47,144 bases of DNA from Archangiaceae bacterium (lineage in GTDB: Bacteria > Myxococcota > Myxococcia > Myxococcales > Myxococcaceae), in contig JAACJQ010000061.1 of assembly GCA_016879935.1 (NCBI GenBank), positions 1-47,144 on the forward strand, given 5' to 3'. A program made the translations under genes and the position numbers. The notes below the pieces were generated by a model. It made no database searches. It had not been told where the DNA came from and worked only from the letters and a program-made list of their open reading frames with translations. Positions 3,646 to 40,366 of this stretch are shown piece by piece; positions within the stretch are counted from its first letter, which is position 1, and each line of letters begins with the position of its first letter.

Positions 3646-5183
3646 CCGAAGCTGCAGCGTCGAGCAACTCAGCACCGTGGAGCGACTCAGCAGGTTGGCG
3701 CGAGCGACTCAGCGGCGGTCGAGCGACTCCGCAGCGTCGAGCGACTCAACAGCATCGAGCGACTCAACAGCATCGAGCGACTCAACAGCATCGAGCGACT
3801 CAACAGCATCGAGCGACTCAGCAGCCTCGAGCGACTCAACAGCATCGAGCAACTCAGCAGCCTCGAGCAACTCAGCAGCCTCGAGCAACTCAGCAGCCTC
3901 GAGCGACTCAGCGGCGTCGAGAGCCCTCAGCGGCGTCGTGTGACTCAGTGGCGTCGTGTGACTCAGTGGCGTCGAGCGACCTCAGCGGCGTCGAGCGACT
4001 CGACAGCATCGAACGACTCGACAGCATCGAGCGACTCAACAGCGTCGGGCGACTCAACAGCATCGAGCGATTCAGCGACGTGCAGCCACTCCAGCGACGT
4101 GGAGCGAGTCAGCACCGTCGAGCGACTCAAGCACCGTCGAGCGACTCAGCAGGTTGGAGCGAGCGACCCAGCGGCGTCGAGAGCCCTCAGCGCCGTCGAG
4201 CGATTCAGCGGCGTCGAGCGATTCAGCGGCGTCGAGCGATTCAGCGGCGTCGAGCGACTCAGGCGCCGTCGAGCGACTCAGGCGCCGTCGAGCGATTCAG
4301 CGGCGTCGAGCGATTCAGCGGCGTCGAGCGACTCAGGCGTCGTCGAGCGACTCAAGCACCGTCGAGCGACTCAGCAGGTTGGAGCGAGCGACTCAGCGGC
4401 GTCGAGAGCCCTCAGCACCGTCGAGCGATTCAGCGGCGTCGAGCGATTCAGCGGCGTCGAGCGATTCACCGGCGTCGAGCGATTCACCGGCGTCGAGCGA
4501 TTCACCGGCGTCGAGCGATTCACCGGCGTCGAGCGATTCAGCGGCGTCGAGCGACTCAGGCGTCGTCGAGCGACTCAGCGGAGTGGAGCGACTCAGCAAC
4601 GTGGTGCGGCTCAGCAACGTGGTGCGGCTCAGCGGCATGGAGCGACTCAGCGTGGAGCGACTCAGCAGCGTGGAGCGACTCAGCACCGTCGAGCGACTCA
4701 GCACCCTCGCGCGACTCAGCACCGTCGAGCGACCTCGCCGGCGTCGAGCGGCTGGGAGGACTAAGACTCCAGCGACTGGGAAGACTCGAGCGACTGGGAT
4801 GACTCGAGCAACCGCGAGGACAGACTGGGAGCACTCGAGCGACTCGCGGCGTCGAGCACATCGCAGCGTCGAGCGACTAAGCGTGGAGCGACTCAGCACC
4901 ATCGAGCGACTCAGCACCATCGAGCGACTCAGCACCATCGAGCGACTCAGCACCATCGAGCGACTCAGCACCGTCGTGCGACCTCGCCGCCGTCGAGCGG
5001 CTGGGAGGACTCGAGCGGCTGGGAGGACTCGAGCGGCTGGGAAGACTCCAGCGACTGGGAAGACTCGAGCGACTGGGATGACTCGAGCAACCGCGAGGAC
5101 CGACTGGGAGCACTCGAGCGACTCGCGGCGTCGAGCACATCGCGGCGTCGAGCACATCGCGGCGTCGAGCGACTCGGCCACGC
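3646..5183. repeat. 18-bp tandem repeat array with higher-order duplications
   Basis: About 1.54 kb is made almost wholly of degenerate 18-bp units, of order 80 copies. The main family is GCGTCGAGCGACTCAGCG-like, with variants ATCGAGCGACTCAACAGC (left), GCGTCGAGCGATTCAGCG (middle) and ACCATCGAGCGACTCAGC (4890-4975). A second family is GACTGGGAAGACTCGAGC-like (4741-4830 and 4990-5120). Longer blocks are themselves duplicated: 4764-4874 recurs at 5043-5153 with two mismatches, and about 4117-4243 recurs at 4342-4468 with two mismatches. Because 18 is a multiple of 3 and the unit has no stop in five frames, long open frames appear on both strands. The repeat register changes frame several times, so I treat it as non-coding. 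It lies between eno and the PHP gene and ends 8 bp before the PHP stop codon. Confidence 0.92.
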
Positions 5184-22798: not shown

Positions 22799-23107
<309 letters not shown>

Positions 23108-23213
23108 TCTCGGTCAACCCCGTTTCGCGACTACCTAACCAACGTTGACGGATAAGACCGTCCCAGGGAGAAAACCGAGGGCTGTCACAGAGCCGTGCAA
23201 CGAAGGGGCGCCG

Positions 23214-23243
23214 CGTATACCCGGGCGCACATCACAGTGTCAA
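23214..23243 (-). promoter_or_regulatory. Predicted promoter of the S10-spc-alpha cluster
   Basis: On the minus strand a consensus -35 TTGACA (23238-23243) is followed after 18 bp by TATACG (23214-23219). The start would be near 23206, leaving a leader of about 100 nt before rpsJ. The leader contains the short stem GACGG/CCGTC. The promoter resembles that of ihfA, which shares TTGACAC and a GTGCGC-type spacer. Confidence 0.75.
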
Positions 23244-23260
23244 GCACCTGAATGCAGATG

Positions 23261-23284
23261 TTCGCGAAAAAGTTCGTTCGCGAA
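23261..23284. promoter_or_regulatory. Two TTCGCGAA palindromes between divergent genes
   Basis: The 8-bp palindrome TTCGCGAA occurs at 23261-23268 and 23277-23284, 16 bp centre to centre. It lies between the rpsJ promoter and the zinc-finger gene. This looks like a tandem operator, but no cognate regulator is identifiable. Confidence 0.4.
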
Positions 23285-23343
23285 TTGAGCGAGTGCTTTC
23301 AAGCGGTTCTGTGGCTTTGGTCTCGCCCTCTGGAGGGAATCAC

Positions 23344-23889
23344 ATGCCTGACGTCATCGAGGAGTCGAAGTCGAACCGCGCCAGCTGCCGCACCTGCCGA
23401 GAGAAGATCGACAAAGGTGTGCTGCGCTTCGGTGAAGAGACCATCAACACGTTCAGCTCCGACGGCGGCACCAGCTACTTCTGGCATCACCTCGCCTGCG
23501 CCGCCGGCAAGGTGCCCGCGAAGGTGAAGACGGCGATGGCCAGCTACGTGGGCGCGATTCCCGAGCGCGAGAAGATCGAAGCGATTCTCGCAGCGCCGCC
23601 GAAGGCGAGCGGCAAGTCGGGCGGGCCGAAGGCGGCGTACCCATATGCGGAGCGCGCGTCGACGGGTCGCTCGAAGTGTCTGCAGTGCGACGAGGCCATC
23701 GAGAAGGGCACGATGCGGGTGGCTGTCGAGCGGGAAGTCGACACGGGAACGTTCACGTCCACCGGGCCTGGCTATCTGCACCCGCGCTGCGCGGCGGAGT
23801 ACACTGGCGACGAGGGGCTGCTCGAGAAGATCAAGGCGAACGTCTCGCTCCCGGAAGAAGACATCGCGGCCCTCGGCGCGGAGCTCTGA
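23344..23889 (+). CDS. Twin PARP-type zinc-finger protein
   Basis: 181 aa with two copies of a PARP-type (CCHC) zinc finger. The first has [20 protein letters not shown] and later YFWHHLACA; ligands would be the C-x2-C pair and H-x2-C. The second has [20 protein letters not shown] and later [12 protein letters not shown] linker rich in Lys/Gly/Ala joins them, and the C-terminal 25 residues are acidic. In eukaryotic PARP-1 and DNA ligase III this finger senses DNA nicks and ends; a DNA-break or nucleic-acid binding role here is inference. No catalytic PARP domain is present. The ATG at 23344 has GGAGG 7 nt upstream. The gene is divergent from the ribosomal cluster. Confidence 0.85.
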
Positions 23890-39091: not shown

Positions 39092-40366
39092 TCAGTTGCA
39101 GACGCCGACGGTTCCCGAGGAAAAAGCTTGGCAGGCGCCAGACGCGCACGCGGGAGAGCCCGAAGTCGAACAGAACGAGCGGCACGTGCCTGTTCCAGAG
39201 GTGCCGATGCACATCAGACCGCGCTGGCAGCTGTTGGCGCTCGTGCAGCTTCCGCCCAGCGGCACGGTTCCAAATGGAAGACAGCCGGCCCCAAAACCCT
39301 GTGCGTAGAACAGACAGGTCAAGTTCGATGGGCACGTGGACTGGTTCAGCGGGTCGCACGCCATTGGAGCAGCGCACACCAGGTGCCGCTCACCGCCCGG
39401 AGAAGCTCCGACCTGGATGAGCGTGTTGCAAAAGGTTCCAATGGTGCAAGTGACGGACGGCCCACAGAACTCACGACAGAGGCTCTGGCCCGACAGATTG
39501 ATGCACTGCGACCCCGCGACGCACTGATCGGAAGACTGAGTGCAGCTGGCGCCAGGCGTGAGGGTACTCGTTCCTGAAGGAACGCAGACCCGACGAACTC
39601 CGCCGTCGGTCGCGGTTGCGAACACGCACTTGTTCTGGCCAATGCAGTTCTGGGCGACGAGGTCGCAGTCGCCTGGCAGACACGTTCCCGCGGTCGTCAC
39701 TGCGCCATTCAGGACGCACGTCGTTCCGGTAGGACAACTTGGCGAGGTGAAGAAGTCGCAGGTTGCGGCAGCCCCTCCGCCCGTTCCCGACGTGCCGCCG
39801 CCCGTTCCCGACGTGCCGCCGCCCGTTCCCGACGTGCCGCCGCCCGTTCCCGACGTGCCGCCACCCGTTCCCGACGTGCCGCCGCCCGTTCCGGAGATGC
39901 CGCCGCCCGTTCCCGACGTGCCGCCACCCGTTCCCGACGTGCCGCCACCCGTTCCCGACGTGCCGCCGCCCGTTCCCGACGTGCCGCCGCCCGTTCCGGA
40001 GATGCCGCCACCCGTGCCGGACGTGCCGCCACCCGTACCCGACGTGCCGCCACCCGTTCCCGACGTGCCGCCACCCGTTCCCGACGTGCCGCCACCCGTG
40101 CTCGAAGTGCCGCCGCCCGTTCCCGACGTCCCCGCGCCAGTGCTGCCGAGGCACGGTCCGAAACTGCACGAAGCGCCGAGACCGCACGCGGTGCAAGTGT
40201 TCCCCCTCGAGCCGCATGCGCCACTCGAAGTGCCGTTCTGACAGACTCCAGAGGAGTCGCAGCACCCGGTCGAGCACGTCGTGGAGTTACAGCGCGGGGT
40301 CGGCGCGCCACACGAAACAACCGAGAGGCCGAAGAGCACCGTCGCGATCAGTGACAATCGATTCAT
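39092..40366 (-). CDS. Cys-rich lipoprotein with heptapeptide repeat linker
   Basis: 424 aa. MNRLSLIATVLFGLSVVSCG is a lipoprotein signal (lipobox VVSC, Cys19). A Cys module follows (residues 26-72: TTCSTGCCDSSGVCQNGT, then ACGSRGNTCTACGLG) like that at 7421-8239. Residues 80-198 are 17 tandem heptapeptides TSGTGGG (one TSSTGGG, two ISGTGGG), a flexible linker. The C-terminal 225 residues contain about 25 Cys in repeated C-x4-C-x2-GxxC units (CVAGSQCINLSGQSLCREFC, CTIGTFCN), suggesting disulphide-stabilised extracellular domains. Probably surface-exposed; function unknown. Confidence 0.85.
   Translation of the reverse strand: MNRLSLIATVLFGLSVVSCGAPTPRCNSTTCSTGCCDSSGVCQNGTSSGACGSRGNTCTACGLGASCSFGPCLGSTGAGTSGTGGGTSSTGGGTSGTGGGTSGTGGGTSGTGGGTSGTGGGISGTGGGTSGTGGGTSGTGGGTSGTGGGTSGTGGGISGTGGGTSGTGGGTSGTGGGTSGTGGGTSGTGGGTSGTGGGAAATCDFFTSPSCPTGTTCVLNGAVTTAGTCLPGDCDLVAQNCIGQNKCVFATATDGGVRRVCVPSGTSTLTPGASCTQSSDQCVAGSQCINLSGQSLCREFCGPSVTCTIGTFCNTLIQVGASPGGERHLVCAAPMACDPLNQSTCPSNLTCLFYAQGFGAGCLPFGTVPLGGSCTSANSCQRGLMCIGTSGTGTCRSFCSTSGSPACASGACQAFSSGTVGVCN
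39773..40129 (-). repeat. 21-bp tandem repeat encoding heptapeptide linker
   Basis: Seventeen in-frame 21-bp units (minus-strand sense ACGTCGGGAACGGGCGGCGGC-like) code for the TSGTGGG heptads of the lipoprotein. The copies are nearly identical at DNA level, so copy number is likely variable between strains. Confidence 0.9.

Follow-up and report, generated by a model that had tools for sequence, protein, structure and literature searches.

What can PARP1-type zinc fingers do in a bacterial protein that carries no enzyme? In eukaryotes, such fingers are a main means of sensing DNA nicks, and most descriptions have them joined to an enzyme. The window, that is, the whole stretch of DNA analyzed, covers positions 1-47,144 of contig JAACJQ010000061.1 from an Archangiaceae bacterium (Myxococcota; assembly GCA_016879935.1). 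An earlier note had described the open reading frame at 23344-23889 as two PARP-type CCHC fingers that form almost the whole protein, divergent to a ribosomal promoter and without a catalytic domain. Our analysis bore out this description, and rpsJ indeed lies on the opposite strand, 236 bp away. The features of the locus are as follows.

22799..23107, minus strand: rpsJ (S10), the first gene of the S10 ribosomal operon and the divergent neighbor.
23108..23343, no strand: intergenic region of 236 bp common to the zf-PARP gene and the divergent rpsJ.
23344..23889, plus strand: tandem zf-PARP open reading frame, ATG to TGA, 181 amino acids plus stop (182 codons).
23353..23598, plus strand: finger 1 domain, residues 4-85 (Pfam, PDB sequence match, alignment, and fold with Z 8.2 to 1v9x).
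23599..23631, plus strand: flexible linker, residues 86-96 (AlphaFold2 pLDDT <50 at residues 90-94).
23632..23886, plus strand: finger 2 domain and C-terminal helices, residues 97-181 (Pfam, alignment, and fold with Z 10.1 to 3ode_A).

The zf-PARP gene is under purifying selection, with a dN/dS of ~0.12-0.13 against four relatives from the same genus (dN 0.07-0.12, dS 0.58-1.03). Because of this ratio and a third-position GC of 0.87, and with the S10 operon adjoining, we regard the gene as real and native rather than as contamination. Searches for a mobile or phage origin gave no match among plasmids, phages and IMG/VR viral contigs. As for a role in defence, PADLOC returned weak, short Cas8b matches (8.9e-6, 63-position model) and nothing else, which probably reflects a generic zinc-knuckle resemblance. 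Elsewhere in the window, two repeat arrays were observed. Positions 3654-5088 hold ~1.4 kb of 18-bp tandem repeats of GCAGCGTCGAGCGACTCA (~74 copies, 81% matches), which keep several frames open and so create long spurious open reading frames; positions 39777-40129 hold 16.8 copies of a 21-bp repeat encoding TGGGTSG-type units, within a cysteine-rich open reading frame at 39092-40366 on the minus strand.

Domain searches identified the protein clearly. In hmmscan against Pfam, zf-PARP (PF00645) matched in two stretches with an E-value of 6.7e-24 and 84.9 bits for the whole protein, compared with a curated gathering cut-off of 39.3 bits; scored apart in the whole-genome zf-PARP search, the two fingers gave 1.5e-13 and 1.2e-6. 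No NCBIfam family matched. The ligand pattern is CxxC-x30-HxxC in both fingers (C15-x2-C18-x30-H49-x2-C52 in finger 1 and C112-x2-C115-x30-H146-x2-C149 in finger 2), and both are predicted from the sequence to bind zinc. The best PDB sequence match was PARP1 F1F2 bound to a single-strand break (2n8a, 5e-10), followed by the DNA ligase III finger (1uw0, 2.2e-8), which aligned to finger 1 with 37.5 bits over 53 residues. The tandem F1-F2 arrangement at the N terminus, a feature of PARP1, was recovered by Pfam, Foldseek and VIA-align. The PARP catalytic domain (PF00644) was found neither in the 181-amino-acid protein nor in its genome assembly by a search that did find PF00644 in relatives. An ATP-dependent ligase core is absent as well, as the protein stops after finger 2 with no further domain in Pfam or NCBIfam.

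The predicted fold agrees with this identification. An AlphaFold2 model built on a 17-row homolog alignment reached a mean pLDDT of 89.4 and a pTM of 0.51, with a floppy linker at residues 90-94. Its best PDB matches in Foldseek were PARP1 F1F2 on nicked DNA (2n8a, 9mi8), ranks 1-28 were all PARP1 or ligase III fingers, and the rmsd to a PARP1 finger on DNA (3oda_B) was 0.8 Å over 51 columns. In VIA-align, residues ~96-181 gave Z-scores of 10.3 (7s6h_C), 10.1 (3ode_A, PARP1 Zn2 on DNA, over 83 residues) and 9.8 (4av1_C), and finger 1 (residues 1-91) gave 8.2 to 1v9x; PARP1 finger matches thus scored 8-10 over 81-88 residues, while unrelated rows started at ~5. The model contains the three-stranded sheet and two helices characteristic of zf-PARP, and both fingers are therefore predicted to take the PARP1 finger fold. 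A fold unrelated to zf-PARP, which would have counted against the earlier note, was not what the model and both structural searches returned.

The protein belongs to a family that is old but patchily distributed. Among 195 Myxococcota genomes from 90 genera, zf-PARP matches occurred in 18 genomes and 12 genera. Seventeen stand-alone homologs, the 181-amino-acid protein included, are 173-216 amino acids long and align end to end, and the others share 29-89% identity with it. All eight zinc ligands are invariant in the 17 sequences, so the lack of conserved Cys/His that would have counted against the earlier note was not observed; the full set of invariant columns is E6, R12, C15, C18, I22, L27, R28, H49, C52, A53, A54, E103, C112, C115, R125, G141, H146 and C149. 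In a poorly resolved tree of single fingers, finger 1 stood apart from finger 2 across the stand-alone family (96/98), with the human fingers forming one group inside the finger-1 side. As the two fingers fall into two groups, the tandem is old and maintained, and it predates the sampled diversity. The domain family itself is known; a literature search, which did not reach subscription papers, found no paper on bacterial zf-PARP-only proteins and hence none that had studied this stand-alone tandem in bacteria.

We consider, with some hesitation, that this is probably a stand-alone, non-catalytic protein that binds DNA strand breaks, since its fingers are of the kind that grips broken DNA and the enzyme part is absent. 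In finger 2 of PARP1, mutations at K119, S120, R122, K134, R138 and W157 abolish or strongly lower DNA binding (PMC3094755), and R18/R122 form the backbone grip of PARP1 (PMC8150716). Alignment places K9, S10, R12, K24, R28 and W47 of finger 1 at the six former positions, and these residues are kept in 14, 16, 17, 16, 17 and 16 of the 17 homologs, respectively. F37, present in 16/17, occupies the same place as the Phe in the NPF loop of ligase III and, judging from the sequence, may stand in for PARP1 F44 as a candidate base-stacking residue. In finger 2, R109 (16/17), K121 (14/17) and R125 (17/17) are kept and Y144 replaces the Trp, and the base-stacking L151/I154 of PARP1 F2 have no obvious equivalent. 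The DNA face of finger 2 carries a net charge of ~0 in most members compared with +5 in PARP1 F2. The pI of the whole protein is 6.0 (5.2-9.7 among homologs), compared with 9.0-9.2 for the human finger stretches. The case for DNA reading is stronger for finger 1, because the contact residues are kept there and finger 2 lacks a basic face.

This neutral to acidic charge, together with the neutral finger 2 face, would also fit fingers that act as a zinc module for protein contacts or structure and whose DNA contacts are an ancestral remnant. Longer relatives speak for the same explanation. The genome of the window encodes three zf-PARP proteins, namely the 181-amino-acid protein and two longer ones (contigs C316 and C332), and six paralogs or relatives in all (G000:C316 = L051, G000:C332 = L052, and L053-L056) carry one or two fingers within 340-740 amino acids. 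L055 has a TIGR02996 match and L053 a weak LRR-like match, and LRR-like repeats commonly mediate protein contacts. However, the equivalents of the DNA-contact residues (R12, R28 and R125, plus K24, W47 and F37) are among the most conserved non-ligand residues, which argues against lost DNA binding since loss would predict drift. We consider this alternative unlikely. As a separate observation, zf-PARP within longer proteins (L051, L052, L053, L055), of which some match TIGR02996 or, weakly, LRR-like/STM4015 models, is possibly an unreported combination.

For a break-binding protein, we provide a putative mechanism. As in PARP1 F1 and F2 and in the finger of DNA ligase III, each finger would fold around one Zn2+. 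At a nick, a gap or the end of a duplex, K9, S10, R12, K24 and R28 of finger 1 would hold the phosphate backbone, W47 and probably also F37 would face the exposed base, and finger 2 may act as a weaker or cooperating partner, by analogy with F1-F2 cooperation in PARP1. Because no enzyme is attached, the protein would act by occupying the lesion, either shielding the ends or bringing in or licensing repair factors that other genes of the cell supply. The repair served would most plausibly be nick sealing or Ku-type end joining. We infer DNA binding, a lesion preference and a repair role for the protein, and its detection of DNA breaks is plausible from the kept contact residues. Such binding is favored by the PARP1 fold match, the kept contact residues, the old tandem and an enrichment of Ku that the SET control does not show. 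Against it stand the pI of 6.0, the uncharged finger 2 face and the lack of obvious L151/I154 equivalents, as well as the patchy presence, with relatives viable without the gene.

Co-occurrence was counted across 18 finger carriers and 177 non-carriers in Myxococcota. Ku was present in 16/18 carriers and 78/177 others (p 3e-4), including all ten carriers within the taxonomic family; part of this association is phylogenetic (p 0.002 within the family and 0.05 outside it), which counts against the break-binding reading. SET, whose overall frequency is close to that of Ku, showed no enrichment (9/18 versus 90/177, p 1), and SPRY was too rare (2 genomes) to serve as a control. Strong PARP catalytic matches, defined by an E-value below 1e-20, were found in five genomes (G070, G151, G183, G185, G194), every one a finger carrier (5/18 versus 0/177; without correction for relatedness, Fisher's test gave 3.8e-6 for genomes and 1.8e-5 for genera). 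Two of these PARPs were scanned, and both consist of WGR, PARP_reg and PARP, without fingers. These co-occurrence results are suggestive of a pathway rather than proof of one.

The PARP association raises the idea of a split PARP1 in some Myxococcota, in which the tandem fingers would sense the break and then switch on, in trans, a WGR-PARP_reg-PARP enzyme encoded by another gene, so that two proteins would share the work of the single PARP1 chain. Other repair machinery would be the partner where the enzyme is absent, and the arrangement could represent a state before the PARP1 fusion in eukaryotes. However, 13 of the 18 carriers have no PARP, the genome of the window among them, and three further, weaker PARP matches all fall in non-carriers. 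Additionally, the PARP genes are on other contigs than the finger genes, the PARP loci showed no finger motif, and microbial PARG is not enriched in carriers (3/18 versus 49/177). The same association could also come from shared ecology or gene uptake. We therefore judge a split PARP1 to be distinctly improbable. The genome of the window does encode a microbial PARG (PF10021; G000:C6:13801-14226), and no PARP was detected there.

The earlier note had also suggested that the protein, encoded divergently to the ribosomal promoter, might couple damage to gene expression, and its genomic context did not sustain a link of this kind to the ribosomal genes. Adjacency to rpsJ is common only to genus relatives L033-L036, and spacing and orientation vary even there: the genes are tightly divergent in L033, 1.6-2.5 kb apart in L034 and L036, and oriented the same way in L035. 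In other members of the phylum, the zf-PARP gene lies at unrelated places. No conserved operon partner was found beyond the genus, and no recurrent neighbor family adjoins the gene outside it, except between the related L044 and L045. As S10 adjacency is limited to the genus and neighbors are not conserved elsewhere, a ribosomal-expression link is unsupported. In L044 and L045, SNF2-type helicase genes lie near the finger gene (L044:6696-9623 and L045:4987-7911), the former directly downstream on the same strand after a 53 bp gap; the break-binding reading is weakened in that its neighborhood link to repair genes is limited to these two genomes. Two TTCGCGAA palindromes, 16 bp apart, lie at 23261-23284 between rpsJ and the zf-PARP gene and form the only such pair in the assembly; a sigma-70 promoter scan found no promoter. 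That the protein regulates transcription from the neighboring S10 operon or its own divergent promoter, as the divergent layout and this unique double palindrome in the 236-bp region might suggest, is nevertheless highly improbable, as the layout is not kept even inside the genus and does not occur elsewhere in the phylum, none of the other 16 homologs has the TTCGCGAA pair in its upstream 160 bp, and known PARP-type fingers show no sequence preference when they bind DNA (PMC8150716).

A maintained fingers-only bacterial protein would demonstrate that the sensing of breaks can stand as a component of its own, would give a minimal system for what the fingers do alone, and would bear on how PARP1 was assembled; in Ku-carrying bacteria, the protein is a candidate reader of nicks and ends. 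Compared with F1 and F2 of human PARP1 (2n8a, 4av1, 3oda, 3odc), it has the same two tandem CCHC zf-PARP domains, fold, ligand pattern and backbone-grip residues. In contrast to human PARP1, its 181 amino acids contain no Zn3, BRCT, WGR, regulatory or ART domain, its pI is neutral and its finger 2 base-stacking loop differs. The single finger of DNA ligase III (1uw0) strongly matches finger 1, NPF-like loop included, but that protein combines one finger with a ligase, whereas the protein described here has two fingers and no ligase. Longer Myxococcota paralogs have homologous fingers and differ in their 340-740 amino acids with an extra region. Bacterial PARPs, such as C. difficile CD160 and that of Herpetosiphon, likewise consist of PARP1-related modules with a sporadic distribution, and in the parts of the sources consulted they are described as WGR with or without PARP_reg, followed by PARP (PMC5966428, PMC4245714). 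In the architectures described there, these proteins are catalytic and lack zf-PARP fingers, and the myxobacterial protein is the reverse.
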